A DNA stretch of 64,000 bases, from assembly GCF_003384725.1 (NCBI RefSeq), contig NZ_QNVV01000007.1:1-64000 (forward strand). The letters are read 5' to 3'. Below, piece by piece: positions 3,775 through 43,060 of this stretch. Source of the DNA: Chryseobacterium pennipullorum. Its GTDB lineage: Bacteria > Bacteroidota > Bacteroidia > Flavobacteriales > Weeksellaceae. Below the pieces are notes generated by a model. That model saw only the letters and a program-made list of their open reading frames with translations. It was not told the origin of the DNA and searched no databases. The first letter of the stretch is position 1, and every line of letters starts with the position of its first letter. The translations under genes were made by a program, and so were the position numbers.

Positions 3775-4548
3775 TTATCCAAAAATGATCATTGGGTTAT
3801 TGGTAATGGGATGTTCGCAGATGGTACAGGGAAAGTTATACGCATGGCTGATATTTTCTGCAGTAAAAACCTCTTCCGGAGTTCCGTAGGCAGAAACTTT
3901 TCCTGATTTCATAAGCAAGATCTTATCTGCAAACTGTGCCGCGAGGTTCAGGTCATGCAAAACAACAATGGCACTATTGGCTTTTTGGGTGAATTTTTTG
4001 ATAATTTCCAGCGCTTTATATTGATGTTTAATATCCAGATTATTCAAAGGCTCGTCCAGAAAGACCAGTTTGTGGGTGATCTCGTTCTGTAGCTGAGCCA
4101 TCACTCTGGAAAGATGTACTCTTTGTTTTTCACCGCCGGAAAGGGTATTGTACTCTCGTTCTTTGAGGTGAAAAATATCTGTTTCGTACATCATATTGTT
4201 CATAGCTTCAAAGTCTTCTTTTCCCGGTTGGGCATCAAAGTAAGGGTATCTTCCCATCATTACAACGTCCTTCACTTCCAGAGGAATATCGTTGCTGTTA
4301 TGCTGGGAAAATTTTGCCTTATGTTTCGACAGCTCTTTGACATTCCAATCATAAATCGGCTTGTCTTTAAATAAAACCTTTTGTTTCGCTATTTTCACTT
4401 CATCCGCCAACACACTCAGCAGACTGGATTTTCCCGCTCCGTTGGGTCCCACGATTGCCAAAAACTCACCATATTCCAGAGAGACATCTACACCCTCTAA
4501 AATATGAAATTCTTTATGTTTATAATTGATCTGGTGTGCCTTGATCAT
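3775..4548 (-). CDS. hmuV: Heme ABC importer ATP-binding protein
   Basis: 257 aa. Walker A GPNGAGKSS (34-42), signature LSGGEKQRV (about 139), Walker B LVFLDEPLNNLD and the H-loop VLHDLNLA are all intact, as in the HmuV/FecE/BtuD class. It would energise import of heme across the inner membrane with HmuU and HmuT. Its ATG shares the A with the TAA stop of hmuU (TAATG), so the two are translationally coupled. The C-terminal CTICEHPITNNP segment is a typical ending of heme-type family members. Confidence 0.93.
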   Translation of the reverse strand: MIKAHQINYKHKEFHILEGVDVSLEYGEFLAIVGPNGAGKSSLLSVLADEVKIAKQKVLFKDKPIYDWNVKELSKHKAKFSQHNSNDIPLEVKDVVMMGRYPYFDAQPGKEDFEAMNNMMYETDIFHLKEREYNTLSGGEKQRVHLSRVMAQLQNEITHKLVFLDEPLNNLDIKHQYKALEIIKKFTQKANSAIVVLHDLNLAAQFADKILLMKSGKVSAYGTPEEVFTAENISHAYNFPCTICEHPITNNPMIIFG

Positions 4549-5588
4549 TACAGTGATTTTTTAAATTTAACCAAAATAGCGATAAAGATCGGTCCGCCCA
4601 TCAGTGCAGTCAGAATTCCGATAGGCAATTCGGACGGCGCCACAATGCTTCTACTGAAAGTATCAGCCGTCAGCAGTAAAATACTTCCACAGACTGCAGA
4701 CAAAGGCAGGATAAACGTATAATTGGATTTGAACAGCAGTCTTAAAATATAAGGGACAATAAGACCCACAAAACCAATTGTTCCTGAAAATGCCACACAG
4801 GTTCCTACCATCAAAGCTACAACAATAATGATCTGCTTTTTCAGTCTTTCTACATTGATTCCCAAATGCTGGGCATCTTTCTCGCCCAGCATCATTGCAT
4901 TAAGCGCTTTACCTTTGGGCAGCAAAATAATATAGGCGATAGCCAAAACGATGGCAAGGATGATATTCTTCGTCCATGTTGCGGCTGCCAGGCTTCCCAG
5001 ATTCCAGAATGTAAGATCCCTGAGCTGCTCATCTTTTGAAATATAGATCAGGAAACCGGTAATGGAAAAACCGATTGCCGTGATCGCCACGCCTGTTAAC
5101 AACATCATTACGACATTGGTTTTTCCACCACTTGTTGAAATCCTGTATACCAGCATCATGGATAGGAAAGACCCGATAAACGCGGCGATTCCTACCAGAG
5201 AAAACTGTACCGCTTCAGGAAGATACTGTTTGAAGTGCCCTCCTAAAACAATTGCAATTGCCGCCAGCAAGGTAGCTCCTGAGGTAAGCCCTATCAAATC
5301 CCCTGTCGCCAGCGGATTTTTAAAAAGCCCCTGCAGACTTGTTCCAGAAACCGCCAGCATACTTCCTATTAAAATAGCCATAATAATTCTGGCTGCCCTC
5401 ACGTCCCAAACCACATATTTATCACTTAAAGATAAATCCGGATCCCCCTGTATTACTTTTCCTAAAACTTCAAACGCGGATTTACCATTAAAATCGTAAA
5501 CTCCTGTATTAACAGACCATACTGCTATGATGGCAAGCAGTATGGTTGTTATGGTCATGTAAAAGTATAATTTACTTTGTGCTTTCAA
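4548..5588 (-). CDS. hmuU: Heme ABC importer permease (FecCD family)
   Basis: 346 aa, strongly hydrophobic with about ten membrane segments. It contains the FecCD landmarks: RAARIIMAILIGSMLAVSGT near residues 64-83, NPLATGDLIGLTSGA, and the C-terminal GFVGLIVPYILRLL coupling helix that contacts the ATPase. It imports heme together with HmuV and the binding lipoprotein HmuT. The start overlaps the end of hmuT by 17 bases and its stop overlaps the start of hmuV by one base, so all three are coupled. Confidence 0.93.
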   Translation of the reverse strand: MKAQSKLYFYMTITTILLAIIAVWSVNTGVYDFNGKSAFEVLGKVIQGDPDLSLSDKYVVWDVRAARIIMAILIGSMLAVSGTSLQGLFKNPLATGDLIGLTSGATLLAAIAIVLGGHFKQYLPEAVQFSLVGIAAFIGSFLSMMLVYRISTSGGKTNVVMMLLTGVAITAIGFSITGFLIYISKDEQLRDLTFWNLGSLAAATWTKNIILAIVLAIAYIILLPKGKALNAMMLGEKDAQHLGINVERLKKQIIIVVALMVGTCVAFSGTIGFVGLIVPYILRLLFKSNYTFILPLSAVCGSILLLTADTFSRSIVAPSELPIGILTALMGGPIFIAILVKFKKSL

Positions 5589-6450
5589 CTAATAATTTGT
5601 TTAATCCTACTGCTGCTTCTCCTAGTCTCGGCCCAAAACCTGAAACCAATCCTCCATCCATGGCGATGATCTTCTTATTTTTCCCTGCATTGGTCTGGGA
5701 AACGCCCGGCATTTTCAGGGCTCCTTCATTTCCTCCTGCTCCCTGTAATCCGGTTTCGAAAAAGAAAAGAACATCAGGATTTGCTTTTACAACCGCTTCT
5801 GGTGTCAATGGTTTGAAATCCTCAAAATCATTCACTGCATTTTCCCCTCCTGCAAGGTTGATAAGAGCAGACATTGGTGTATTTTTACCGGATACCATCA
5901 GCATATTTCCTCTGGCATAGATGAATAATACTTTGGGCTTTTTGGCGATGGGCTGTACCTGTTTCAGATCGGCATCAATCTTATCATTCAGTGCCTGATA
6001 ATTGGTATTTCCAAGCGCTTTGGCAACATCTGCAATTAATTTTTTAGTTCCGTCCACAGTATATTCCTGCTTGAAAACCTCAGCCTGGATTCCTGAAGAT
6101 TTGATTTTACCCAAGAGTTCAGGATTGATATCTTTATCAGAAGCCAGGATCAACGTAGGGCTAACCGCCATGATCGGCTCGATGGTCATAGATCGTACGT
6201 GGCCAAGATCCTTTGCTGTAGCCTTCAATGATGCAGGGTATGTGCTGGTCACATCTGTTCCTACGATTTCCTTTTCGTGTCCCAGGGCTGTTACGATTTC
6301 TGTAATACCTCCACTTAAGGTTACGATTTTATGATTGCTTTTAGGTGCTTCAGATGAAGCTTCCGTTGTATTTTCTTTTGTAGAGCCTTCTGCTTTTTTG
6401 CATGAGTAAACTGCGATAAGAACAGAGGCTGCAAGAATGAATTTTTTCAT
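5572..6450 (-). CDS. hmuT: Heme ABC importer substrate-binding lipoprotein
   Basis: 292 aa from the chosen ATG at 6450; an upstream in-frame ATG at 6486 would put twelve extra residues before the signal peptide and is unlikely. The start MKKFILAASVLIAVYSCKK is a lipoprotein signal with its Cys at residue 17. The periplasmic-binding fold of the FecB/HmuT type follows, with KIVTLSGGITEIVTALG near residues 40-56, DLGHVRSMTIEPIMAVSPTLIL, and a C-terminal GGLVSGFGPRLGEA segment. It passes heme from the outer-membrane receptor to HmuUV. It lies 67 bases after hmuY. Confidence 0.92.
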   Translation of the reverse strand: MKKFILAASVLIAVYSCKKAEGSTKENTTEASSEAPKSNHKIVTLSGGITEIVTALGHEKEIVGTDVTSTYPASLKATAKDLGHVRSMTIEPIMAVSPTLILASDKDINPELLGKIKSSGIQAEVFKQEYTVDGTKKLIADVAKALGNTNYQALNDKIDADLKQVQPIAKKPKVLFIYARGNMLMVSGKNTPMSALINLAGGENAVNDFEDFKPLTPEAVVKANPDVLFFFETGLQGAGGNEGALKMPGVSQTNAGKNKKIIAMDGGLVSGFGPRLGEAAVGLNKLLVESTK

Positions 6451-6517
6451 AGTAGGTTGTTTAAAGTTGATCATCACCTGTTTCAATGGTGAATACTCGA
6501 TATACAGTTATTATATT

Positions 6518-7642
6518 TTATAAGGGATCGAATACAAAATTAGGATAGCCACGCTCGCCATCTACATTCTTCATTTTATTAAACCTCAGCTTAAAGTAAA
6601 ACCCGTTGGCATCTTTTATCACAAAGAAGCGGTCTGAATAAACAAATGCACCTTGTACCTCTACAGTTCCTGTTGTGGTTCTCCATTTGTCGCCTATCGC
6701 TCTCTGATCGTTGGAAATAAACTTAGTGGCATCAATATCACTCAGTTTGAAATTTTTATACGCCTGATCCAGACTTCCCGTCACATTCACCTGATAAGCA
6801 CTTACCCCGGCAGCAGTATTGGTAATGACAAAATCTGCATAAAAATAGCTTCCCGCGCTCGAGGTCCCCATAAATACCTCATTGGTAAAAGTGGTGAACG
6901 CGATATCCCATTTCTTTTTCTCCGGCTGGATTTTAACGGTGCTTCCTGAATTGAAACTGAAAAAGCTAAAGTTATAAGCAGCATCTTTGGTAATGATGTA
7001 TTCTTTATAATCGGTATCGTTAAGATCTGCGTAGCGTATTTTATACCCGTTCGGAGCTCTTAGAATCTGAATTTTTTTCCATCCTCTTATATCTCCTGAC
7101 AAAGAAACTGATCCCGGTGGAATATTTGAATTGGCATCCAGTTTTCTCCCCAGATTAAGAAGATACACAGGATTGTCAGCATCATTCTCCTTTACCGGCT
7201 CAATTCCAGTCGTCTGGGTAAGAAAATTACCTGTAGGATTATCAATATACTGCAATACGGATGCACCAAAAGGTCCTACCTGAACCTCATTCATAAGATT
7301 TTGAACATCCGACTGCTTGACACTGTTTATTTGGGTAGCATTGGGAATTTTAGCAACAGCCATTGCAATGGAACCGTTGAGAATAACCCGGTATTCATCC
7401 CCTGAATAAAATCCTAAATCCCAATCAGTTCTTAGATTAACGGTTTGGTTAAGTTTTTTGGTTTCAGGGTTCATATCGCTTAGATCAAGCCAAACCTGGT
7501 TGGGCTGTCTTGCTCCCCCCACTCCAGGGTCCACAACAGAGCCTGTAATAGGAGGCACCGCCACCGGATCTTCATCAGCTGAAAGGCATGACTGTGCAGC
7601 GGTAAGAATGAACAGAAATGAAAATATGCTTAAATACTTCAT
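6518..7642 (-). CDS. hmuY: HmuY-family heme-binding lipoprotein
   Basis: 374 aa. Lipoprotein signal MKYLSIFSFLFILTAAQSC with the Cys at residue 19. The HmuY domain is indicated by DLSDMNPETKK, WDLGFYSGDEYRVILNGS near residues 75-90, the FSFNSG segment and KKWDIAFTTF near residues 245-253. In Porphyromonas, HmuY is a surface or secreted heme scavenger working with the receptor HmuR. Here it starts 12 bases after the receptor gene, so the two form the classic HmuY-HmuR pair. A second HmuY-like protein without a lipobox is encoded at 10860-12152. Confidence 0.9.
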   Translation of the reverse strand: MKYLSIFSFLFILTAAQSCLSADEDPVAVPPITGSVVDPGVGGARQPNQVWLDLSDMNPETKKLNQTVNLRTDWDLGFYSGDEYRVILNGSIAMAVAKIPNATQINSVKQSDVQNLMNEVQVGPFGASVLQYIDNPTGNFLTQTTGIEPVKENDADNPVYLLNLGRKLDANSNIPPGSVSLSGDIRGWKKIQILRAPNGYKIRYADLNDTDYKEYIITKDAAYNFSFFSFNSGSTVKIQPEKKKWDIAFTTFTNEVFMGTSSAGSYFYADFVITNTAAGVSAYQVNVTGSLDQAYKNFKLSDIDATKFISNDQRAIGDKWRTTTGTVEVQGAFVYSDRFFVIKDANGFYFKLRFNKMKNVDGERGYPNFVFDPL

Positions 7643-7654
7643 GATATATTTCTT

Positions 7655-9763
7655 TTAGAATTGATACATTAATCTTGCAAAATAGCTTCTTCCGTAATAC
7701 AGATTCAGACGGTCCGATCCGGCAGTATGAGCATTGCCTACATTGGCTGTACTGTTTATAGAAGTCACATCAAAAATATTTTTAACTCCTACAGACAGTT
7801 CAAAACGGTCTTTCCAGAATGGCTGGCTCACAATAAAGTCCATCATATGAAACCCGTCGGTTTTTCCAATCTTGAACGTTTCATTTTCCAACACATAAAG
7901 TCTCCCCGGACCTGTATATTTATAATAAAGATTAAATGCGGTATTAACGTTTTTCAATTTATAAGAAACATTCGCGCCTGCCTGAAAATTATATTGGAAA
8001 TCTGTCGGAGAAGTTGCGTCTATATCAAATCTGGAAACAGAAATTCCATTCAGTGAGGTTCTTACCCCCAATGAGAACTGATCTTTAACGATATTGGCAT
8101 TGGCTGCAAACAAAAGACTTCTGTATTTATCCATATTCATATATTTATAAGTAGAAGGCTTTTTGACCATAATCAATTCTATCTTATCCTTTAGATCCAC
8201 ATACAGTGCTTCCAGGTTATAATTCAGCTTCCATCCGTTGCCTATTGAAAAGCCCTGATCCCAGAAAAGCCCCAGAGAATACCCGTTTTCGGGGTTCAAA
8301 TCCGGATTCCCCTGGATATCATGATTCAGATTGACAAAGAAAGTATATAGCTCGTCATAGGTAGGATAACGGTTAGCGGTTCCGAATACCCCTCTCAGGT
8401 TAGAATTCTCTGAAGTTTTCCATCTTGTGGAAAGCGAGTAGTTGAACTGGTTATTGAATTGCTCACTCACCGTTAACCTTGCTCCCGGTCTCACTGAAAA
8501 TTGATCAGAAATATTCCATTCTGCAGAAAGGAATGTACCATAGGTAAAGATTTTTCTCTTGGTACTTGCTTCAAAGAAATCTCCGGCAATAAGTGAAGCA
8601 TACCCATTGGTATGGTCTAGCTCATAGCCCAGCTGGAAATCAAATTTTTTGCTGTCCAGAAAGTTACTGAACATCCCTCTGGAGTAGATAACGTCTGTTT
8701 TATAATAGGAATTTTCCGGCTTTTCACTCACCCTGAACCTGTTCGGAACATCATAGGTATAATCAAAATATCTTCGGTCCTGTTTCTGGTATGAGAAGTC
8801 TCCCATATACCGGATATGCCCCAGGTTGGTTTGAATATTGAACTGGTGAAGCCATCTGTCTGTATTGTATTCACGGTCCGTAGCCCAATAGGTAGCACCT
8901 CCGTTTCCATCATTCAGAGCTTCCGGAGTAGAGATCGGGTTATAGAAATTAAACTTTTCGTTTAAATAAGATATCTTATAAAAAAATGAGGTTTTATTTT
9001 TGGAATATCTGATCAATGCATTGGCTTCATACTGGTCTTTAGGATTCCATTCATATCCGCGCAACGGGATTTTTTCATCACCAAAGTGCTTGTACCCTTT
9101 TTTGTTTCCTTCATAACCCATAAACTGGTTATGATTGAAACTGATGTTGGTGAACCAATGATCATTAATGTTGTATCCGATATTTACATTCTGAATATGT
9201 CTTCCTTTCCCCCTTTTCTTAAGGTCGTAGCCATCTCTCACGGTTTCTTCCTGCAATGCGGCCCTGATGCTGAGTTTCTTGCTGCTATTTTTCTTCGTAA
9301 TGATATTGATCACTCCTGCAAGTGCTCCGTTTCCGTATTCAACGCCCATACTTCCCTTTACCACTTCGATTCGTTCAATATTACTCAAACTGATTTTAGT
9401 AAGATCAATATTGCTTCCTAATCCTGTATCTCCTACCACAGGGATATTATCAATCAGGATTTTCACATAGTCGCCACCAAGTCCCATAATATTCGCTGTA
9501 GAATTTCCGGAATTGGTGTCTGGGGTGATTTGTATATTAAGGGTTTGATTAAGGACGTCAGCAGCATTGGTCGCTGCCATATTTTTGATCTGCTGTTCAT
9601 CAATCACTTCTACTTTGTAAATAGATTTATCAATTGACTTTTGCATATACTGGCCCGTAATGACAACTTCTTCAATTTTCTGTTGATTAAGAGAATCCCT
9701 TTCTTGTGCATTCATCCAAAAGGCAAAGGATAATGACAGAACGGAAAGCACTTGCTTCTTCAT
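7655..9763 (-). CDS. hmuR: TonB-dependent heme receptor, HmuR type
   Basis: 702 aa from the ATG at 9763, which gives the signal peptide MKKQVLSVLSLSFAFWMNAQ; the upstream ATG at 9808 would run through the promoter and operator. A TonB box-like segment (EEVVITGQ) is followed by the plug domain (ERIEVVKGSMGVEYGNGALAGVINIITK) and a long beta barrel ending in YFARLMYQF, with the terminal Phe typical of outer-membrane barrels. It is the first gene of the heme operon. Its predicted -7 box and one arm of the operator dyad lie within 45 bases upstream, so iron or heme control is likely. Confidence 0.93.
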   Translation of the reverse strand: MKKQVLSVLSLSFAFWMNAQERDSLNQQKIEEVVITGQYMQKSIDKSIYKVEVIDEQQIKNMAATNAADVLNQTLNIQITPDTNSGNSTANIMGLGGDYVKILIDNIPVVGDTGLGSNIDLTKISLSNIERIEVVKGSMGVEYGNGALAGVINIITKKNSSKKLSIRAALQEETVRDGYDLKKRGKGRHIQNVNIGYNINDHWFTNISFNHNQFMGYEGNKKGYKHFGDEKIPLRGYEWNPKDQYEANALIRYSKNKTSFFYKISYLNEKFNFYNPISTPEALNDGNGGATYWATDREYNTDRWLHQFNIQTNLGHIRYMGDFSYQKQDRRYFDYTYDVPNRFRVSEKPENSYYKTDVIYSRGMFSNFLDSKKFDFQLGYELDHTNGYASLIAGDFFEASTKRKIFTYGTFLSAEWNISDQFSVRPGARLTVSEQFNNQFNYSLSTRWKTSENSNLRGVFGTANRYPTYDELYTFFVNLNHDIQGNPDLNPENGYSLGLFWDQGFSIGNGWKLNYNLEALYVDLKDKIELIMVKKPSTYKYMNMDKYRSLLFAANANIVKDQFSLGVRTSLNGISVSRFDIDATSPTDFQYNFQAGANVSYKLKNVNTAFNLYYKYTGPGRLYVLENETFKIGKTDGFHMMDFIVSQPFWKDRFELSVGVKNIFDVTSINSTANVGNAHTAGSDRLNLYYGRSYFARLMYQF

Positions 9764-9781
9764 AGGGGTACAAATTTTCGA

Positions 9782-9789
9782 CAAATATA
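9782..9789 (-). promoter_or_regulatory. Predicted -7 box of the hmu operon
   Basis: Minus-strand TATATTTG matches TAnnTTTG, 18 bases before the hmuR ATG. The operator arm at 9793-9805 lies right behind it, so a bound regulator would block this promoter too. Confidence 0.5.
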
Positions 9790-9792
9790 AAA

Positions 9793-9850
9793 CTTTATTT
9801 AGAATCATTAAAAATAAATGAGTATTTTTGTGGAATAATTCTAAATAAAG
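9793..9850. promoter_or_regulatory. Operator dyad and promoter between hmuR and the T9SS gene
   Basis: CTTTATTTAGAAT (9793-9805) and ATTCTAAATAAAG (9838-9850) are an exact 13-bp inverted repeat with 32 bases between them. A plus-strand -7 box TATTTTTG (9823-9830) sits between the arms. Each arm is itself half of an AGAAT-N-ATT type palindrome, as expected for a Fur-like dimer site. The layout recurs at 10788-10841. That Fur is the regulator is inference; no regulator gene is in the window. Confidence 0.7.
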
Positions 9851-9858
9851 ATAATCCT

Positions 9859-10674
9859 ATGAAATTAAAATTACTTTTAGGAAGTTTGATATTTACAGCA
9901 TTTACAGCCAATGCACAACTTGCTGCTATCAATGAAAATTTTGATAATTTCACGTCAGGAAATACTACTTTTCCTCAATCTGGCTGGTCTGCGGTCGTAG
10001 CACCTATGGTGATGGGAACAGCACCATTTCCGGTTCCGCCAAGAATGATTGTGACCACTACCGCTGATAAAGCCGTTCAGTCTTATTCGGGAACGAATGC
10101 TACGGGTTCGTCTTATCTGATTACTCCGCAGATCCAGACTCCTGCAGGAAATAAAACATTATCGTTTGTCACTACGCTGGTAAGTCCTTCTCCAGGGCCC
10201 GGAACTATTCAGGTAGGAGTAGCATCCAGCACTACTGATATGTCTACTTTCATTCCGGTTGGAAATCCAATCACAGTAGCTACCGTAGGAGAAATTAAGA
10301 ATATAAGTCTCCCTATTCCGGCGACGGCAGGTTCTTATCTGGTATTTAAATTTACTCCATCTGCCGAGCACGTTGCCGTTCAGATTGATAATGTAGTGTA
10401 TGACACATCCCCAAATCTGGGAACAAATGATCATACCATCGGTTCCAAAGATGAACTGAAGTTCACGGTGAGTGCGGATAACAACACGTTGATCTTTGCG
10501 GCCAAAAAAGATCCTAGAAAGATTCAGATCTATTCCTCAGGAGGTCAGAGAGCAGCTGAAGGAAAATTGAACAGACAAAATTTTGATATTACCCATCTTC
10601 AGAAAGGCGTATATTTTATGTTAATTGAAACTGCTGAAGGAAAAACAGTACAATCAAAATTCATCAAAAAATAA
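9859..10674 (+). CDS. T9SS-exported protein with choice-of-anchor J-like domain
   Basis: 271 aa. Signal peptide MKLKLLLGSLIFTAFTANAQ, then an ENFDNF...GWSAV segment that resembles the start of cleaved-adhesin/choice-of-anchor J domains, a beta-rich body (residues 25-185), and a C-terminal type 9 secretion sorting domain (about 200-271, ending LQKGVYFMLIETAEGKTVQSKFIKK-like). No enzymatic motif is seen. It is divergent from hmuR and shares its operator, so it is probably made under iron or heme limitation and may help bind heme or host protein at the surface. The function is unknown. Confidence 0.8.
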   Translation: MKLKLLLGSLIFTAFTANAQLAAINENFDNFTSGNTTFPQSGWSAVVAPMVMGTAPFPVPPRMIVTTTADKAVQSYSGTNATGSSYLITPQIQTPAGNKTLSFVTTLVSPSPGPGTIQVGVASSTTDMSTFIPVGNPITVATVGEIKNISLPIPATAGSYLVFKFTPSAEHVAVQIDNVVYDTSPNLGTNDHTIGSKDELKFTVSADNNTLIFAAKKDPRKIQIYSSGGQRAAEGKLNRQNFDITHLQKGVYFMLIETAEGKTVQSKFIKK

Positions 10675-10787: not shown

Positions 10788-10841
10788 TTATTTAGAATGA
10801 TTAAAAATAATTATATACTTTTGTGGAATCATTCTAAATAA
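10788..10841. promoter_or_regulatory. Second operator dyad with -7 box
   Basis: TTATTTAGAATGATT (10788-10802) and AATCATTCTAAATAA (10827-10841) are an exact 15-bp inverted repeat. The -7 box TACTTTTG (10816-10823) lies between them. Measured from AGAAT to ATTCT the gap is 32 bases, the same as at 9793-9850, and the TTTTGTGGAAT stretch after the -7 box is also shared. Confidence 0.7.
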
Positions 10842-10859: not shown

Positions 10860-12152
10860 ATGAAAACAAAACTATTATTGGCTTCTGTGCTGGCTTTATC
10901 TGTTCAGCAAACGGTTCTGGCACAGACGGATGCATTGGGGTACTCCCAGGTTAATATGTCGATGGGTAGCGGTTATCAGAACCGTGTGTTTGTAAACCTG
11001 GCAGATGGAAACATGGTTTCTCAGCCGGCCAATACCTGGGACATTGCTTTTTACAGAAATTCAATCTATGCGTCTGGTACAAGAATTAATGATGCTCTGG
11101 ACATTAAGGTGTATACGGCATCTACTACCCTTGCAGACTGGGATAACATCAATATCAGTAATGAAGCCTCATGGGGAGCTCCTTTATACAATCCTGACCA
11201 GACGACAGATTTGAGCCAGGGAGCTTTTGAGCAAGGGCCTGTGACTTCAACCAATCCTAATATTCCTTCAACAGGCTGGGGAGTTTATAATCCAATTAAT
11301 CATCACATTGAGGGCAAGGCCATTTTTGTTTTAAAATATCCTTCAGGAACTTATGTCAAGTTTGCCATTGAAGATGCATTTGCGGGTTATACCTTTAAAT
11401 ATTCCAAGTGGAATGGCAGCGCATGGGAACCTACAGAAACAAGAACAATTGCCAACGGAACAGATGATGCTTACTTCAATTATTTCTCCTTTACAACAGG
11501 GGCAAAAGTTCCGAATCTGGAACCTTCAAGAAGTACCTGGGATCTGATGTTCACAAAATACTACACGTTCTATATGGGGTATCAGATGTATCCGCTTTCG
11601 GGTGCAATCCAAAATCCAAATATTAAGATTGCCATGGTACAGCCGGAAGTTCAGGCAAGTGCAACGTATACAATTCCTGCTACAACAAGCTTTTCATCCA
11701 AGATCACTACTGTAGGCCATTCGTGGAAAGGAATCGGAAACGTGTACAGCGACGTGGTTTATTACATTAAAAAAGGAAATGATTACTACAGAATGTACTT
11801 CATCACCAATGGAGGTGCTACGACGGGAGATATGTATTTCAAATATAAAAAACTGGATGGAACTCTGGGAATTACTGAGGTAGGCAAAAAAGCCGCTTTT
11901 GGAATCTATCCTAACCCTACTGCTGCTGATAAAAAAGTAACTGTTCTTTTTGATGTAAAAGAAAGAGCCAATAACAAAGGCAGCGTGGAAGTATACGATC
12001 TTACCGGTAAAAAAGTATATGCTGCAGAACTTACCAATCAGGCAGGATTCTATCAGCAGGATATGAACCTCTCTCACCTGACTTCAGGAAACTATATGGT
12101 GAAAATCACTTATGGTGGACAAACGGAAACGAAAAAGCTTATTGTGAAATAA
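10860..12152 (+). CDS. T9SS-exported HmuY-like protein
   Basis: 430 aa. Signal peptide (MKTKLLLASVLALSVQQTVLAQ) without a lipobox. The body carries two HmuY-like features also found in the lipoprotein at 6518-7642: an early WDIAFYRNSIYASGTRIN segment, and later the pattern FSF-x2-G-x2-V-x(3,4)-P-x4-WD-x2-FT. The last 80 residues are a T9SS sorting domain (FGIYPNPT...GSVEVYDLTGKKVY...YMVKITYGGQTETKKLIVK-type). I infer a fully secreted or surface-attached hemophore that would hand heme to HmuR or the HmuY lipoprotein. It has its own operator-controlled promoter. Direct heme binding is not shown by the sequence. Confidence 0.8.
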   Translation: MKTKLLLASVLALSVQQTVLAQTDALGYSQVNMSMGSGYQNRVFVNLADGNMVSQPANTWDIAFYRNSIYASGTRINDALDIKVYTASTTLADWDNINISNEASWGAPLYNPDQTTDLSQGAFEQGPVTSTNPNIPSTGWGVYNPINHHIEGKAIFVLKYPSGTYVKFAIEDAFAGYTFKYSKWNGSAWEPTETRTIANGTDDAYFNYFSFTTGAKVPNLEPSRSTWDLMFTKYYTFYMGYQMYPLSGAIQNPNIKIAMVQPEVQASATYTIPATTSFSSKITTVGHSWKGIGNVYSDVVYYIKKGNDYYRMYFITNGGATTGDMYFKYKKLDGTLGITEVGKKAAFGIYPNPTAADKKVTVLFDVKERANNKGSVEVYDLTGKKVYAAELTNQAGFYQQDMNLSHLTSGNYMVKITYGGQTETKKLIVK

Positions 12153-35712: not shown

Positions 35713-37962
35713 TTAATTAGCCCCTATTTCATCAACAAACAACCATGCTTTTGAATCTGCTCCCGGATTTCCAGCTGGAATAATCCCTGCATTTTCAATA
35801 ATGATTTTCAGGTATTTTGCATTCTGTGTTCCGACATTCGCTTTGATCTTTCCTTTGGCATTTTGAATATCTTCTTTTCCTATTTCTTTGATCATTTTAA
35901 AATTCCTGTTATCATCAGAAACAAAAATCTTTGCAGATTTAGCCAGATGAATCCAGCTTCCTTTATTTTCCAGGGTATTGAAGGACACTTCAGAAAACGC
36001 AGTTTTATTTCCGAAATCAATAGTGGCAGCCACATCTTTCCCCTGAAAACCCAGCCACGTTTTCCCCAATTGTTTTACATTTCCAATAATGCCGTCTACG
36101 AGAGTGAGGGCACCTCCAAAAGAATAGTTTTCACTGGGTTGCTGTTCCAGAGTGATGTTTTTTCCTGTTGTCTTTGAGATGGTGAATGGTTGTGTAGAAA
36201 CAGCACTTTTTAATTGTCCATCCTCAAAATAAGCGGATTTGAGTGTTAAAGATTTTGGAATCGGAATGCGGCTTCTATAGGCATTGGAACGGGCAGAGGG
36301 AACTGTTCCGTCTAAGGTATAGCGTATCCCCTCAGGATTTTGTGAAGTGGAGAGTTCATATGCAATTCCCTGCTGGGAGGAAACAACTTTTCCGGTAATG
36401 TTGTAAATACTTTTCGCGTAGTTTACATTCAACCTGTCCAGCACTTTAAATTCATGGATTACCCTGTTTTCAAATTCTTTATAATTCTTAGGGTCCGCCG
36501 TTCCCCATCCCACTTCAGAAAGTGCAAAAAGCCTCGGAAAAATCATATACTGCACCTGTTTAAAATCCAGAATATACTCGGTCCATAAATTCGCCTGAAC
36601 CCCTAAAATATATTTTGCCTGCTCCGGACTCAGCTCTGCCGGGACCGGATTATAAGAATACACTTTATCCAGGGGAGTAAAACCTCCGAATGCATTAGGC
36701 TCTGACTGAGGGTCTCCCTGATAATGGTCAAAATAGCAATATGCTCCGGGAGTCATCACGGCAAAATGTTTGGATTTTGCGGCCTCAATACCTCCGTTTA
36801 CTCCTGTCCAGCTCATTACGGCAGCGTTAGGAGCCAGGCCACCTTCCAGAATTTCATCCCATCCAATGATCTTTCTTCCTTTGGTATTGACATATTTTTC
36901 AATTCTCTGAATAAAATAGCTCTGTAAGCCATGTTCGTCCTTTAAGTTATTCTTTTTGATAAGCTCCTGGCAATGGGCACATTCTTTCCATCTTGTTTTT
37001 GGACATTCATCACCTCCGATGTGAATATATTGCGATGGAAACAAATCTATTACTTCATCCAGTACATTTTCCAGAAACGTGAACGTTTCTTCTTTCGGGC
37101 AGAAGACATCATCAAAAACGCCCCATTTTGTAGCCGGTTCAAAAGGGCCTTTGGTGCAGGCCAATTCAGGATATGCAGATAACGCAGCCAAAGCATGACC
37201 CGGCATTTCTATTTCCGGAACCACCGTAATATGTCTGTCCTGAGCATATTTTATGACCTCTTTTATTTGTTCCTGCGTGTAAAAATACGGTCCGTAAGGT
37301 TTTCCATCAAATGTATTGTCCACATAAGCTCCGATCATGGATTCTTTACGTTTTGAACCCACCTGAGTCAGTTTTGGGTACTTCTTAATTTCAATTCTCC
37401 ATCCCTGATCATCCGTTAAATGCCAATGGAACGTATTCAGCTTGTACATCGCCAGGTAATCAATGTATTGCTTCACCTCATCCACTGTGAAAAAATGACG
37501 GCAAACATCCAGATGCATTCCCCGCCATGCAAATTTTGGATGATCCTCGATCTTCATAGCCGGAATTTTCTTTTCCGTCTTATAGTTTTCAAGTAACTGA
37601 ATTACCGTTTGAAGAGCCCGGAAGTATCCTTCCTGCGTATATGATTTGATGATGATCTGACTGGGCGAAATTTCAAGGTTATAAAACTCGTCTTTTCCTG
37701 CGGGTGCATTGGAAAGTTTTGAATAAGCTAAATGAGCATCCTTCCCTTTCACATCTTTCCATTTTATCCCTGAACCCAATCGCTTCTTCAGATATTCCGT
37801 TTCATTTTTAGGTAAATTACTATCCAGATTCAAGGTTTCAGGGATGATAAAGGTACCATCAGTCATCTGTAATGTTTGGGGATAGGGAATTAAATTCAAT
37901 TTATCCTGAGCGAAAATCGCAGTTGAAAATAAAGTAAAAAACAAAAAAAAAGATCTTATCAT
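35713..37962 (-). CDS. Beta-N-acetylhexosaminidase, glycoside hydrolase family 20
   Basis: 749 aa. Signal peptide MIRSFFLFFTLFSTAIFAQ. A GH20b N-terminal domain (25-140) leads to the catalytic barrel with the D318-E319 pair in HIGGDEC and the FHWHLTDDQGWRIEIK segment. A chitobiase-type C-terminal beta domain (about 560-620, YTLDGTVPS) and an F5/8-like carbohydrate-binding domain (about 635-745, VDGIIG...WLGFQGKDVAATIDFG-type) follow. It releases terminal GlcNAc/GalNAc from host glycans or chitin fragments. It is the first gene of the minus-strand glycan group. Confidence 0.94.
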   Translation of the reverse strand: MIRSFFLFFTLFSTAIFAQDKLNLIPYPQTLQMTDGTFIIPETLNLDSNLPKNETEYLKKRLGSGIKWKDVKGKDAHLAYSKLSNAPAGKDEFYNLEISPSQIIIKSYTQEGYFRALQTVIQLLENYKTEKKIPAMKIEDHPKFAWRGMHLDVCRHFFTVDEVKQYIDYLAMYKLNTFHWHLTDDQGWRIEIKKYPKLTQVGSKRKESMIGAYVDNTFDGKPYGPYFYTQEQIKEVIKYAQDRHITVVPEIEMPGHALAALSAYPELACTKGPFEPATKWGVFDDVFCPKEETFTFLENVLDEVIDLFPSQYIHIGGDECPKTRWKECAHCQELIKKNNLKDEHGLQSYFIQRIEKYVNTKGRKIIGWDEILEGGLAPNAAVMSWTGVNGGIEAAKSKHFAVMTPGAYCYFDHYQGDPQSEPNAFGGFTPLDKVYSYNPVPAELSPEQAKYILGVQANLWTEYILDFKQVQYMIFPRLFALSEVGWGTADPKNYKEFENRVIHEFKVLDRLNVNYAKSIYNITGKVVSSQQGIAYELSTSQNPEGIRYTLDGTVPSARSNAYRSRIPIPKSLTLKSAYFEDGQLKSAVSTQPFTISKTTGKNITLEQQPSENYSFGGALTLVDGIIGNVKQLGKTWLGFQGKDVAATIDFGNKTAFSEVSFNTLENKGSWIHLAKSAKIFVSDDNRNFKMIKEIGKEDIQNAKGKIKANVGTQNAKYLKIIIENAGIIPAGNPGADSKAWLFVDEIGAN

Positions 37963-38178
37963 GGGTAGTAATTAACGTTTTAGCTAAGATAATTATTTTT
38001 CAAAACCTTTTGAAAAAATTTTTCTTCCACAAAAGCGACCATTCTTTATCTCATTTTATTTTCATGCGTATTCCACTGAAAAGCACGCCGGTCTCTCAAA
38101 GGTTATGGTAAGAATTCAATATAAGCAATACTATGGTTTGTTTTTTGCTATGGGTAAGCGAAATCAAGAATTTAAGTT

Positions 38179-38186
38179 TAAATTTG
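38179..38186 (+). promoter_or_regulatory. Predicted -7 box of the DUF4197 gene
   Basis: TAAATTTG fits TAnnTTTG and lies 11 bases before the ATG at 38198. Confidence 0.45.
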
Positions 38187-38197
38187 TAAAAAAAACG

Positions 38198-39034
38198 ATG
38201 AAAAAAAGCATTTTTCTGGCAGCCGGATTATTATTTTCAGTATCTGCACAAGCGCAACTATTTGACGTAATAAAGTCCACTATTAAAGATAAAACAGGGG
38301 TAGATCTTAATACTCCGGTAAAAACCAAAGGCACAACAGCTACAACACCATCCAAAACCACTACGGCTACGACAGGTGTGGGTGTTAACGGCAACAGCAA
38401 TTCCCCTGTCAATCTTGGGAATCTGACCTCAACCCAGATTTCATCAGGATTAAAAGAGGCATTAAGCCTCGGAGTAACTGACGGCGTAAAAAAACTGGCC
38501 TTAACGGATGGCTTTTTCAAAAATGAAGCCGTAAAAATACTAATGCCTGAGAAACTGAGAAAAATTGACACCACTCTACGTTCGATTGGAATGGGAAGTC
38601 TTGCTGATGAAGGGGTAAAACTTCTTAACAGAGCCGCTGAAGATGCCGTTACGGAAGCAGCTCCTATTTTTACGAATGCTATTACTTCCATGACCATTAC
38701 AGATGCTAAGAACATCCTGCTAGGTACTGATAATGCAGCAACGAGCTACCTTCAGGGTAAAACGCAAAGCCAATTGTTCACAGCTTTCCAGCCTAAAGTA
38801 AAAGCCTCACTGGGGAAAGTAGGCGCTGATACGGTATGGAAAAACCTTATCTCAAAATACAATACATTTACAGGACAGTCTGTAACCACTGACCTTAATG
38901 AGTATGTTACTACAGAAACCATTAATGGAGTGTTTAAGATGGTCGCTGATAAGGAAAGCGGAATCAGGAATACACCTGCCATGAGAACAACCAGTATCTT
39001 ACAGAAGGTTTTCGGGGCTCAGGATGGAAAATAG
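38198..39034 (+). CDS. DUF4197 domain protein, exported
   Basis: 278 aa from the ATG at 38198, which gives the signal peptide MKKSIFLAAGLLFSVSAQAQ; an upstream ATG at 38105 would run through the promoter. A low-complexity Thr/Pro/Lys stretch (residues 40-70) precedes the DUF4197 domain (about 75-278), with ALSLGVTDGVKKL, FFKNEAVKILMPEKLRKID and TAFQPKVKASLGKVGADTVW. The family is common in Gram-negative bacteria and has no known function. Export to the periplasm is expected. Confidence 0.85.
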   Translation: MKKSIFLAAGLLFSVSAQAQLFDVIKSTIKDKTGVDLNTPVKTKGTTATTPSKTTTATTGVGVNGNSNSPVNLGNLTSTQISSGLKEALSLGVTDGVKKLALTDGFFKNEAVKILMPEKLRKIDTTLRSIGMGSLADEGVKLLNRAAEDAVTEAAPIFTNAITSMTITDAKNILLGTDNAATSYLQGKTQSQLFTAFQPKVKASLGKVGADTVWKNLISKYNTFTGQSVTTDLNEYVTTETINGVFKMVADKESGIRNTPAMRTTSILQKVFGAQDGK

Positions 39035-39064
39035 AATTGGATTGACAACTAAGTATTACAATAA

Positions 39065-39097
39065 AAAAGTGCTGTTTCGCAATGAAACAGCACTTTT
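39065..39097. terminator. Terminator of the DUF4197 gene
   Basis: AAAAGTGCTGTTTC, loop GCAAT, GAAACAGCACTTTT: an exact 14-bp stem. Confidence 0.85.
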
Positions 39098-39258
39098 ATA
39101 TCAGGCCTTTTACTAATTTATTTTTTCATTATAATATGCAGAGAATGTCCTGTTATATACACATCATATTTTTTTCATAACTTCGGTTCACTACCATTAC
39201 AAAATAATCATTTCAGAATATGATGATTATCAATGTAAAACATAAACTAAAAACCACG

Positions 39259-39636
39259 ATGAAAAAACTAATCTCCATAATGCTTTTTGCTGTTCTTATC
39301 ACAAGCTGTTTGCCCATGACAGGGAGTTCGATGACAGCCTTTATTGTAAAAAACAATTCTGAAAAACCCATCAGCTTTACAGCAGGTGTTATTAAAATGT
39401 CACAGGCTTTTGGTGCGCAGGAAATCAATAATTCTTTTACAGTAAAACCTCATGATAGCCTTATTGTAAGGCAGACCTACTTTAAAAAAGACAGTGAAAA
39501 TCCACAAAAATGGTTCTCCAAATTTGATATTTCACCTGAAGAAGGTATTGAAATGAACGATCCCAATCTTTCAGAAAACTGGAAGAAGTCTTCTAAAGAT
39601 AATGTTCCCACTTATACTTTCACGATCAACAAATAA
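39259..39636 (+). CDS. Small hypothetical lipoprotein
   Basis: 125 aa from the ATG at 39259 (signal MKKLISIMLFAVLITSC, lipobox Cys at residue 17). The earlier ATG at 39220 would add thirteen polar residues before the signal. The mature part reads like a small beta sandwich (TAFIVKNNSEKPISFTAGV near residues 24-42, then KPHDSLIVRQTYFKK). No family is recognised. Confidence 0.7.
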   Translation: MKKLISIMLFAVLITSCLPMTGSSMTAFIVKNNSEKPISFTAGVIKMSQAFGAQEINNSFTVKPHDSLIVRQTYFKKDSENPQKWFSKFDISPEEGIEMNDPNLSENWKKSSKDNVPTYTFTINK

Positions 39637-39684
39637 AACTGTTAAAATTGTGAAAATCTTTTATTTATCAGGTAGAAAATAAAA

Positions 39685-39711
39685 AAGCTGCTTACATTTC
39701 TGCAGCAGCTT
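39685..39711. terminator. Terminator of scoB
   Basis: AAGCTGCT pairs with AGCAGCTT; on the minus strand a TTTTT run follows. It also faces the convergent lipoprotein gene. Confidence 0.7.
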
Positions 39712-39730
39712 GTTATGATGTAGAATCAAA

Positions 39731-40384
39731 TTAGAATTGCATTTCAGGAATTTCTCCTTCAATGATCATATCTGCTTCTGTAGCTTTAATAATATCTTCT
39801 ACCGAAACGCCAGGTGCTCTTTCCACCAGTTTGAATCCGGCAGGAGTCACATCAAGAACGGCTAGTTCAGTAACTACTTTTTTTACACAGTTTACTCCGG
39901 TTAAAGGAAGTGTACATTTTTTAAGGATTTTACTTTCTCCTGCTTTATTGACGTGCATCATCGCAACGATAATATTTTCAGCAGAAGCTACGAGATCCAT
40001 AGCACCTCCCATTCCCTTCACCATTTTTCCTGGAATTTTCCAGTTGGCGATATCTCCGTTCTCTGAAACTTCCATCGCACCAAGGATGGTAAGATCCACT
40101 TTCTGACCACGGATCATCCCGAAGCTAAATGCAGAATCGAAGAATGAACCTCCTTCTAAAATAGTAATGGTTTGTTTTCCGGCATTAATGATATCAGCAT
40201 CCTCTTCTCCTTCGAATGGAAATGGCCCCATCCCCAGAACTCCGTTCTCACTCTGGAATTCTACGGAGATCCCCTCCGGAACATAGTTGGCAACCAATGT
40301 AGGAATTCCTATCCCCAGGTTTACATAATAACGATCTTTCAGTTCTTTTGAAATTCTTTTGGCAATTTGTTCTTTTGTAAGCAT
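39731..40384 (-). CDS. scoB: 3-oxoacid CoA-transferase subunit B
   Basis: 217 aa. It has NLGIGIPTLVANYVPEG near residues 22-38 and the catalytic Glu in QSENGVLGMGP (SENG motif, about 44-54). It forms a heterotetramer with subunit A and moves CoA between succinyl-CoA and acetoacetate, for ketone-body or leucine breakdown. The partner scoA lies 2 kb away on the same strand, with an ABC exporter gene in the opposite direction in between, so the two subunits need separate promoters or a long transcript. Confidence 0.93.
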   Translation of the reverse strand: MLTKEQIAKRISKELKDRYYVNLGIGIPTLVANYVPEGISVEFQSENGVLGMGPFPFEGEEDADIINAGKQTITILEGGSFFDSAFSFGMIRGQKVDLTILGAMEVSENGDIANWKIPGKMVKGMGGAMDLVASAENIIVAMMHVNKAGESKILKKCTLPLTGVNCVKKVVTELAVLDVTPAGFKLVERAPGVSVEDIIKATEADMIIEGEIPEMQF

Positions 40385-40479
40385 AATAAAAACTTAGACT
40401 GCAATTTAAATATTTTCAGCTGAATATAAAAGGCTTTATTGCGCTTAACAATTAACACTGTTAGTTAAAATAATATCTG

Positions 40480-40487
40480 TAATTTTG
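40480..40487 (+). promoter_or_regulatory. Predicted -7 box of the ABC exporter
   Basis: TAATTTTG fits TAnnTTTG, 17 bases before the ATG at 40505. An imperfect palindrome TTAACACTGTTAGTTAA lies about 13 bases upstream of it; TTAACACTGTTAGT also occurs at 22094-22107. Confidence 0.45.
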
Positions 40488-40504
40488 CTTTTTTATCAGA
40501 CCGA

Positions 40505-42307
40505 ATGAAAATACTTTTTAAATATCTTAAACCTTACCAGTGGCTCATTCTTATCTCTTTATTTTTGGCTACTGTCAATCAGGTTTTCTCTTTATTTGCA
40601 CCTGCCATTACTGGGAATATTCTCGATCAGCTGGTCACTCATCCTAATTTTTTCGACAAAGAAAAATTACTGCCCAGAAATCTGAATGAATATCTGTATG
40701 GAAGCCCGGTATACCATGGGGCATTTTATTTCTTAGGCCTTCTCATCGGTACCGCTATGGTGAGCAGAATAGCTAAAGCCTTTCAGGATTATGTAGTCAG
40801 TGTCATTACTCAGAAATTTGGAGCAAAGATCTTTACAGATGGCTTAAAGCATTCAATGGCTTTGCCATATCAGGAGTTTGAGGATCAGAGAAGTGGTGAA
40901 ACTTTGTCGATTTTAACCAAAGTAAGAGAAGATACTGTAAAATTCATTACCAATTTCATCAATATTTTCTTCGGAATTTTAGTCAGTATTATTTTTGTAT
41001 CCGTGTATGCGATCCGCTTACATTGGTCGATTATGCCGGTGTATATCTGTGGAATTTTCCTGATTGCTTTTGTCACCAATTTACTGAGCAAGAGGATAAA
41101 AAGCATTCAGAAGAATATTGTGACGGAAACAACGGCTTTGGCCGGAAGTACAACAGAAAGCTTACGAAATATTGAAATTGTTAAAAGCTTAGGGCTCACC
41201 AACCAGGAAGTAATCCGTTTGAATAACAATACATACAAAATCCTTGGACTTGAACTGCGGAAGGTGAAAAGCATCCGTTCTTTAAGTTTCATTCAGGGAA
41301 CAATGGTTAATTTTCTTCAACAGCTGATTACCCTTACCCTTTTATTCCTGATTTTCAAGAATATTGTGACGCCGGGCCAATATCTGTCCTTGATGTTTTA
41401 CGGATTTTTCATTTTCGGGCCCATGCAGGAAATCGGGAATATTATCATCTCTTACCGTGAAGCTGAAGCATCACTGCAAAATTTTGACCGCCTGATGAGA
41501 AAGGAAGTAGAGGAAAAACCACTTCATCCGAAACAGATCGGAGCTATTGAAGAGCTGGAATTTAAGCATGTGTCTTTTAAGCATCAGTCTGCTCAGTATA
41601 AAGCATTAAATAATATCTCTTTTGATGTCAAAAACGGGGAGACCATTGCTTTTGTTGGCCCCAGCGGTTCAGGTAAAAGTACCCTGGTAAAATTGCTGGT
41701 GGGACTTTACAGACCCCAGGAGGGCAATATTTTTTACAACACCGTGAATGGGAAGGAGTTTGATTTTGATGAGCTGAGAAATCAAATCGGTTTTGTGACC
41801 CAGGATACGCAGCTATTTGCAGGAACCATCAAAGAAAATCTTCTCTTTGTCAATCCAAACGCAACTGAAGAAGAACTGGCTGTTGCTCTACAAAAATCAA
41901 GTTGTACAGCACTTCTTGAAAGAGCTGAAAAAGGGATTGAAACGGTCATTGGTGAAGGTGGACTGAAGCTAAGCGGCGGTGAAAAACAAAGGATTGCCAT
42001 TGCAAGAGCCTTGCTAAGAAAACCTCATCTCCTGATCTTTGATGAAGCAACTTCAGCATTAGACAGCATTACTGAGGAAGAGATAACTTCTACAATAAAA
42101 GACATTTCAAAAGAAAGGGAGCAAATTACCGTTCTTATTGCCCACCGTTTGAGTACGATCATGCATGCAGACCGCATCTATGTCCTTGAACGTGGACAAG
42201 TGGTAGAAACAGGATCCCACGAAAAACTAATTGCAGAAAAAGGACTTTATTACGCCATGTGGCGCCAGCAGATCGGAGAAAGAAAAACACTGACGCCACA
42301 GGCATAA
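40505..42307 (+). CDS. ABC exporter, fused permease and ATPase
   Basis: 600 aa. Six membrane segments (about 15-315) belong to the type IV ABC exporter fold. The nucleotide-binding half has VGPSGSGKSTLVK (Walker A, about 393), LSGGEKQRIAIARALL (signature), LLIFDEATSALD (Walker B) and AHRLSTI (H-loop). It works as a homodimer or with a half-transporter partner not seen here, and relatives export lipids, drugs or peptides. It is inserted head-on between scoA and scoB. The substrate is unknown. Confidence 0.92.
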   Translation: MKILFKYLKPYQWLILISLFLATVNQVFSLFAPAITGNILDQLVTHPNFFDKEKLLPRNLNEYLYGSPVYHGAFYFLGLLIGTAMVSRIAKAFQDYVVSVITQKFGAKIFTDGLKHSMALPYQEFEDQRSGETLSILTKVREDTVKFITNFINIFFGILVSIIFVSVYAIRLHWSIMPVYICGIFLIAFVTNLLSKRIKSIQKNIVTETTALAGSTTESLRNIEIVKSLGLTNQEVIRLNNNTYKILGLELRKVKSIRSLSFIQGTMVNFLQQLITLTLLFLIFKNIVTPGQYLSLMFYGFFIFGPMQEIGNIIISYREAEASLQNFDRLMRKEVEEKPLHPKQIGAIEELEFKHVSFKHQSAQYKALNNISFDVKNGETIAFVGPSGSGKSTLVKLLVGLYRPQEGNIFYNTVNGKEFDFDELRNQIGFVTQDTQLFAGTIKENLLFVNPNATEEELAVALQKSSCTALLERAEKGIETVIGEGGLKLSGGEKQRIAIARALLRKPHLLIFDEATSALDSITEEEITSTIKDISKEREQITVLIAHRLSTIMHADRIYVLERGQVVETGSHEKLIAEKGLYYAMWRQQIGERKTLTPQA

Positions 42308-42309
42308 AA

Positions 42310-42336
42310 AAAGCGCTGAATGATTTTCAGCGCTTT
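42310..42336. terminator. Bidirectional terminator
   Basis: AAAGCGCTGAA, loop TGATT, TTCAGCGCTTT: an exact 11-bp stem between the convergent ABC exporter and scoA. Confidence 0.8.
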
Positions 42337-42358
42337 CTTTTTATCTTTTTCCAGAGAT

Positions 42359-43060
42359 TTACTCTTTAGTTCTAACAGTTCTTTGTTCAATTCTTTTTTC
42401 AAATTTTTCACCCTGGAATATTCTCTGGATCATAATTCCCGGGATATGAATTTCATTAGGATCTAACTGCCCAGGCGCTACCAGTTCTTCCACCTCCGCA
42501 ATGGTAATTTTACCTGCTCCGGCCATCGGATGGTTGAAGTTTCTTGCAGATCCTTTAAAAATAAGATTACCCGCATGATCTCCCTTCCAGGCCTTCACAA
42601 TAGAAAAGTCTGCCTCGAAAGCATGTTCCAGAATATGAGGCTTTCCGTGGAATTCTTTAACCTCTTTACCTTCCGCTACTTCCGTACCATAGCCCGCAGG
42701 CGTATAAAAAGCAGGAATTCCGGCTTGAGCAGCTCTGCATTTTTCAGCTAAAGTTCCCTGTGGAGTAAGCTCTACCTCTAATTCACCCGAAAGCATCTGT
42801 CTTTCGAATTCTGCATTTTCACCTACATAAGAAGAGATCATCTTTCTGATCTGTCTTTTATGCAGTAATAATCCCAACCCGAAGTCGTCTACACCAGCAT
42901 TGTTGGAAATACAGGTAAGATCTTTCACATCACTTTCTACTAAAGCATTAATGGAATTTTCAGGAATCCCGCAAAGTCCAAATCCGCCCAACATCAGTGT
43001 CATTCCATCTTTAATTCCCTCGATGGCCTCCTGTGCATTGTTTACTCTTTTATCTATCAT
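42359..43060 (-). CDS. scoA: 3-oxoacid CoA-transferase subunit A
   Basis: 233 aa. [13 protein letters not shown] near residues 25-37 and [15 protein letters not shown] are the subunit A glycine-rich CoA-binding segments; [10 protein letters not shown] and [21 protein letters not shown] follow. It pairs with ScoB. The gene is complete and in the same orientation as scoB but separated from it by 1,974 bases containing an oppositely directed gene and a strong terminator. Confidence 0.93.

Follow-up and report, generated by a model that had tools for sequence, protein, structure and literature searches.

What would a HmuY-like protein with a T9SS sorting domain do beside a HmuY lipoprotein? Most work on HmuY has dealt with it as a lipoprotein of anaerobes from the mouth and gut, and the 64,000-nucleotide stretch of Chryseobacterium pennipullorum DNA analysed here (the window) encodes both kinds of protein, together with a TonB-dependent receptor. 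A preliminary description had proposed a two-tier system, in which a released or surface-bound scavenger hands heme to the anchored HmuY and the receptor. The features considered are the following (positions in the window).

3775-4548, minus strand: ABC ATPase (by eye), also present in relatives where the stretch extends that far
4548-5588, minus strand: FecCD-like ABC permease (by eye), which also adjoins the locus in relatives
5572-6486, minus strand: ABC substrate-binding lipoprotein (PF01497, 101.5 bits)
6518-7642, minus strand: HmuY lipoprotein with tandem domains and lipobox Cys19 (PF14064, 87.5 bits, two stretches)
7655-9808, minus strand: TonB-dependent receptor (PF07715 and PF00593)
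9797-9846, no strand assigned: 50-bp module between the receptor and anchor-J genes, twin of the one at 10790-10839 (43 of 50 bases identical)
9859-10674, plus strand: choice-of-anchor J protein with a T9SS tail (NF038128, 50.0 bits; TIGR04183, 35.7 bits)
10790-10839, no strand assigned: 50-bp promoter module, with TATACTTTTG flanked by two half Fur boxes in facing orientation (motif searches)
10860-12152, plus strand: T9SS-tailed tandem HmuY protein, 430 aa (ORF translation, profiles and fold)
10860-10922, plus strand: signal peptide, about residues 1-21 (by eye)
10935-11408, plus strand: HmuY-type domain 1, residues 26-183 (PF14064, 38.1 bits on a trimmed piece)
11301-11303, plus strand: codon of the near-invariant His148 (present in 30 of the 32 sequences of alignment A4)
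11409-11861, plus strand: HmuY-type domain 2, residues 184-334 (hhalign against the lipoprotein domains)
11904-12149, plus strand: T9SS type A C-terminal sorting domain, residues 349-430 (TIGR04183, 59.1 bits; PF18962, 57.3 bits)

The T9SS-tailed protein and its kinship with HmuY

The sorting domain scored far above the TIGR04183 cut-off of 23 bits, and SprA is encoded in the same genome (SprA_N, 496.1 bits); both support the predicted export of the 10860-12152 product through the T9SS. The protein contains no Cys and hence no lipobox, so that the lipoprotein anchor typical of known HmuY lipoproteins, a subgroup of the Pfam family, is absent and a T9SS tail is found instead. These two traits had been read correctly in the preliminary description, as had the pattern FSF-x2-G-x2-V-x(3,4)-P-x4-WD-x2-FT common to both proteins, which occurs as FSFTTGAKVPNLEPSRSTWDLMFT in the T9SS-tailed protein and as FSFNSGSTVKIQPEKKKWDIAFT in the lipoprotein. 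Both turned out to be tandem two-domain HmuY proteins, with the pattern located in domain 2. In the lipoprotein, each half matched PF14064 on its own, and Cys19 is the sole cysteine.

The T9SS-tailed protein matched the HmuY lipoprotein in BLASTP with an E-value of 2e-4, and profiles of 32 T9SS-tailed proteins and 41 lipoproteins aligned over 288 columns with an E-value of 3.3e-29, a likeness beyond chance. Alignment A1 held 34 sequences, A4 the 32 T9SS-tailed proteins, A6 26 of their 32 first domains, and A3 the 41 lipoproteins with < 85% mutual identity out of 72, two of which were copies of the window's own. HmuY was absent from the Pfam scan of the whole T9SS-tailed protein at E up to 1, and domain 2 scanned alone generated no Pfam hit. 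Trimmed pieces containing the first domain scored 38.1 and 39.7 bits for PF14064, and the protein scored 37.8 bits in the genome search, relative to a curated cut-off of 27 bits. In hhalign, domain 1 matched lipoprotein domain 1 (E 1e-12, 72 columns) and domain 2 matched lipoprotein domain 2 (E 1.4e-19, 138 columns), while the crossed comparisons were weaker (E 3.8e-10 and 0.002), which suggests that the tandem arrangement is probably older than the divergence of the two HmuY proteins. Domain 2 of the T9SS-tailed protein also matched its domain 1 (E 3.7e-8). In a profile search of 177,635 PDB sequences, the top match was Porphyromonas gingivalis HmuY (E 7.7e-6), followed by BfrB (E 6.8e-5).

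A full-length AlphaFold2 model reached a pLDDT of 82.7, and its PDB matches were taken up by the sorting domain; the two-domain part was therefore folded alone, from 32 sequences (pLDDT 91.0, pTM 0.88). The sole Foldseek match of this model at E of 0.001 or lower was PinO (6r2h, E 3.3e-4). Ranks 1-8 in VIA were all HmuY-family PDB entries (Z 13.9-10.8, 124-135 residues aligned, rmsd 2.5-3.1), with a drop to Z 8.6 at rank 9 and 5.3 at rank 10; as the aligned ranges cover both domains, the match is not assignable to either half. The structure prediction that had been proposed as a check thus gave a HmuY-like model, made for the T9SS-tailed protein only. As judged from profiles and the predicted fold, the 10860-12152 product is a member of the HmuY family. 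The HmuY-HmuR system of P. gingivalis resembles the locus in fold (3H8T, Z 12.5; 6EWM, Z 11.8) and in having a TonB receptor as partner, but P. gingivalis HmuY is a single-domain lipoprotein without a sorting domain.

Candidate heme ligands, neighbouring genes, and the Fur-type promoter modules

Apart from His148, no His column and no Met column reached 75% among the 32 T9SS-tailed proteins. In a set of 70 T9SS-tailed proteins, mostly from Chryseobacterium, His148 was found in 69 and His287 in 66. The lipoproteins differ in their conserved residue: Met94 was present in all 41, the best His column reached 13 of 41, and the window's own HmuY lipoprotein has no His at all, although at least one His occurs in 33 of the 41. 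Two His residues, H134 and H166, serve as ligands in P. gingivalis HmuY. In the profile mapping of His148 to His166, no alignment of T9SS-tailed proteins reached that loop; by eye, each of the two residues lies between a GW motif and the next strand. The iron ligands described for HmuY proteins are His-His, His-Met or Met-Met, and the Met-Met types favour reduced heme (PMC12106395, PMC11208336). We infer His148 and Met94 as candidate iron ligands of the respective proteins.

The best NCBIfam match of the receptor was a B12 receptor model at 94.5 bits (cut-off 599.7), and its heme and siderophore receptor matches were likewise under cut-off. The listed start of the receptor (9763-9808) overlaps the promoter module, and Met16 (about 9763) appears by eye to be the likelier start. 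For the ABC binding lipoprotein, the named models scored 66.5 (PGF type), 64.4 (IsdE) and 33.7 bits (BtuF), all below cut-off.

Each promoter module consists of ATTTAGAATNATT half sites that face each other across a promoter-like TANNTTTG, which we take to be a promoter motif. The next-best module match in the window, 32 of 50 bases, overlaps the second module, and the one after it has 30 of 50. Genome-wide, 14 exact half boxes were found, four of them at this locus, compared with three for the reversed control pattern; several of the others adjoin TonB receptors, a FecCD-type permease pair or suf genes (ORFs by eye). With one mismatch allowed, the window as a whole contained no excess of half boxes (8 found, 7.0 expected); support for the module comes from the exact pairs and from how well these are conserved. 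The half site corresponds to bases 1-13 of the published Riemerella Fur box, ATTTAGAATTATTCTAAAT, and Riemerella Fur bound four promoters with such boxes in gel shifts (PMC5609570).

The promoters were compared in 67 of 69 loci; L056 and L072 were left out as an intact start was not found. A half box with at most one mismatch was present within 130 bp upstream of the gene in all 67 loci, relative to a background of 20 in 5,780 stretches of 130 bp. The paired module, with two mismatches tolerated per half, was found upstream of the T9SS-tailed gene in 54 of the 67 loci; 55 carried it at the receptor/anchor-J promoter. Among these 55, 50 lay within 200 bp of the 5′ end of the receptor gene, and the remaining five just upstream of the anchor-J gene, where receptor and anchor-J are further apart. 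Both promoters carried the module in 43 loci and neither in one, and no paired module occurred elsewhere in the 874,505 bp examined. These patterns suggest that Fur binds the modules in this organism and that the genes are under iron control. The anchor-J gene is itself a second T9SS-tailed gene under the twin Fur-type module; an anchor-J relative adjoins the receptor in L154 and L155, whose retrieved regions contain no T9SS-type HmuY.

Distribution of the gene and apparent exchange of the receptor-HmuY pair

The nearest named relatives of the T9SS-tailed protein belong to Chryseobacterium, with up to 86% identity. Of the 74 loci compared (L004-L077), 73 had a match to the TonB receptor and 72 a match to HmuY near the gene; HmuY is missing from L052, and both receptor and HmuY from L076, each on a short contig. 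In four distant Bacteroidota loci (L073, L074, L075 and L077; 27-28% identity), the gene, the receptor and HmuY follow in this order on one strand; the fifth distant locus, L076, has neither partner, but its contig is short. Of 20 further stretches, 12 hold the gene, eight of them together with a receptor or HmuY profile match; L166, one of the eight, also encodes the same kind of ABC binding protein. The other four (L159, L164, L167 and L168) gave no receptor or HmuY profile match near the gene.

At an E-value of 1e-6, profile matches occurred in 37 of 395 phylum-sample genomes and 98 of 197 family-sample genomes, with cross-hits to lipoproteins included. When the T9SS-tailed type was taken as matches of at least 130 bits, it was present in 17 and 78 genomes, respectively; among the 78, one copy is broken by stops and one is fragmented. 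Sorting tails were present in the 16 loci read (L093-L108). At least 10 genomes of the same genus had weak matches only, which we read as the lipoprotein alone. The reading frame of the gene is disrupted in L056, L072 and contig C2 of G522; as other genes of L072 are broken too, sequencing error is likely there. One 2.0-Mb family genome (G396, contig C1) has three matches of the T9SS-tailed type (392, 223 and 137 bits), at about 26, 182 and 470 kb.

Inheritance of the neighbouring genes was compared in 59 loci, after exclusion of L072 beforehand and of nine of the other 68 loci in which a gene was missing or short. Pairwise identities of HmuY and the receptor were strongly correlated (rho 0.81), while those of the T9SS-tailed protein tracked HmuY (rho 0.32) and the receptor (rho 0.28) weakly and the flanking genes slightly better (binding protein 0.35, ABM 0.47, TSUP 0.50). 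The receptor-HmuY pairs of the window and of L004-L071 fell into two classes, of 27 and 32 analysed loci, scattered over species. Quick trees with branch support unchecked showed 11 class changes for the flanking genes and 10 for the T9SS-tailed protein; the receptor and HmuY trees showed a single one, as expected from the definition of the classes. Shuffled class labels (200 shuffles) gave means of 19.6 and 19.9 changes and minima of 14 and 13, respectively, so the classes partly follow kinship. The receptor and HmuY look as if they had been swapped in place, as a unit, about ten times, with the flanking genes and the T9SS-tailed protein staying with the chromosome. That the T9SS-tailed protein is co-inherited with this pair only weakly makes a tightly specific contact between them less likely.

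Related systems and the possible routes of heme

Two parts of the proposed arrangement are already known. A T9SS-secreted HmuY is in print for Flavobacterium columnare (C6N29_01035, HmuY_like domain and Por_Secre_tail; PMC9618737); we liken it to the present protein by its description only, and the accessible part of that paper does not describe a second HmuY lipoprotein alongside. A two-tier scheme is known from the duck pathogen Riemerella anatipestifer, where RhuH (PDB 8XJC), RhuR and RhuA act as hemophore, receptor and outer-membrane heme-binding protein (PMC11967795), and the scheme considered here would work alike. RhuH is secreted in outer membrane vesicles and extracts heme from hemoglobin in a His96-dependent manner, which RhuA is unable to do, and rhuH and rhuR-rhuA point away from each other, separated by a promoter region that contains a Fur box (PMC11967795). 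In Porphyromonas endodontalis, a T9SS type A protein, beta-barrel-like by its description, is encoded within the hmu operon (POREN0001_0445; PMC11208336), and in Prevotella intermedia a HmuY gene is followed by that of a T9SS type A protein (PIOMA14_I_1196-98), both strongly induced on iron depletion (PMC10434189); these two T9SS proteins are likened to the present one by tail and gene position. HfpY of Flavobacterium psychrophilum, with its receptor HfpR, is a distant heme-binding HmuY relative, for which the accessible text mentions no sorting domain (PMC9331221). In literature searches, the papers listed, chiefly from non-subscription literature, contained no description of a tandem HmuY with a T9SS tail next to a lipid-anchored HmuY.

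RhuH is a DUF6607 protein and was rejected as a member of the same family as the T9SS-tailed protein, which gave no sequence match to PF20311 (DUF6607/RhuH) or 8XJC at E up to 1; 8XJC was also missing among the structural matches listed for the two-domain model, which has no bearing on kinship. PF20311 was not found in the window's genome, and the RhuH cut-off was passed in 16 of 197 family-sample genomes, none of them of the same genus. Eight of these 16 genomes also hold the T9SS-tailed protein, six of them within about 12 kb, which rules out that the two proteins strictly replace each other; in the phylum sample, by hand count, RhuH was present in 35 genomes, the T9SS-tailed protein (at least 130 bits) in 17 and both in two. 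DUF6607 proteins adjoin HmuY in L150 (9300-10199) and L156 (1009-1908) and a gene of the T9SS-tailed HmuY kind in L165 (5644-6570), and on contig C5 of G554 a segment of about 5 kb (about 37527-42751) encodes all three, the T9SS-tailed protein, RhuH and the HmuY lipoprotein. The L150 protein beside HmuY scored 322 bits for DUF6607 and E 5.8e-95 against 8XJC, with 12 RhuH residues from PMC11967795 in register; its match to the hemophore RhuH suggests a likely role for this domain of unknown function, for which a literature search found no paper.

The reading that we prefer, and consider reasonably probable, is that the 10860-12152 product is a T9SS-exported, tandem HmuY-fold heme scavenger that feeds the supply of the neighbouring receptor and HmuY under iron control. 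Iron limitation would switch on its gene together with those of the receptor and the anchored HmuY, and the T9SS would export the protein, which would then be surface-bound or released. It would capture environmental heme, most likely via His148 of domain 1, and the captured heme would increase the supply for the adjoining TonB receptor and HmuY lipoprotein. Heme is the likely ligand, judging from the family, the Fur-type module, the receptor and ABC neighbours, and the near-invariant His. It may pass from the T9SS-tailed protein to HmuY or to the receptor, and a relay through the HmuY lipoprotein is possible. Of the two-tier system first proposed, the scavenger thus gained support from its fold, its sorting domain and SprA, while the transfer of heme to HmuY stays conjectural. 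Several points weigh against the preferred reading: one His is strongly conserved, whereas characterised HmuY members use His/Met pairs; the T9SS-tailed protein follows the receptor and HmuY weakly in identity; four of the 12 further regions hold the gene without a nearby receptor or HmuY match; and deletion of the T9SS-secreted F. columnare hmuY gave no phenotype in the tests described, with normal growth in TYES and TS and virulence kept in adult zebrafish and rainbow trout (PMC9618737).

The HmuY homologue BfrC, which binds neither heme nor PPIX, also weighs against it and, together with the atypical heme binding of BfrB (PMC12106395), would fit a rival reading in which the exported HmuY-fold protein supplies the same receptor with some other ligand: a corrinoid, a siderophore, or PPIX bound without iron coordination. 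The B12 model as the top NCBIfam match of the receptor, far under cut-off, points the same way, but the ABC binding protein scores higher with the heme model IsdE than with BtuF, both below cut-off. The Fur-type module and the near-invariant His148 also argue for heme, as does RhuH, whose family includes a proven hemophore and which some relatives encode in this neighbourhood; we regard such another ligand as unlikely. A function as a surface catcher, which holds hemoglobin or heme on the cell for storage or adhesion and does not feed the receptor, would agree with the surface anchoring that is frequent among T9SS type A proteins; the gene sits among uptake genes under the same promoter module, and we consider this function very improbable. 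Parallel scavenging, with no relay and each HmuY protein supplying this or another receptor directly with the heme it has bound, is a more serious possibility, though we lean against it; it overlaps with the preferred reading, which fixes no heme route. The weak co-inheritance, the gene-bearing regions without a nearby HmuY match, and the ability of Riemerella RhuA to serve a second receptor, RhuB, as well (PMC10986502) are all in its favour. The common locus and twin promoters argue against it, as does the order suggested by RhuH extracting heme from hemoglobin where RhuA cannot (PMC11967795).

A more far-reaching variant, speculative and in our view rather doubtful, is a modular chain in which a T9SS-exported His-type front end, for the most part handed down with the chromosome, is combined with an exchangeable Met-type HmuY-receptor cassette, swapped among species about ten times, and in which other secreted hemophores (RhuH/DUF6607) can take that same place. 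If so, heme would move from the His-type to the Met-type protein by redox change or by pull of the receptor, and the front end would need no fit to any single cassette. In Chryseobacterium relatives, a T9SS-tailed and a lipid-anchored HmuY paralogue, which differ in their conserved residues, appear to be co-controlled, and such a pair would make heme relay between relatives directly testable. Beyond this, the comparison suggests a function for DUF6607 and the exchange of the receptor and HmuY as a unit.
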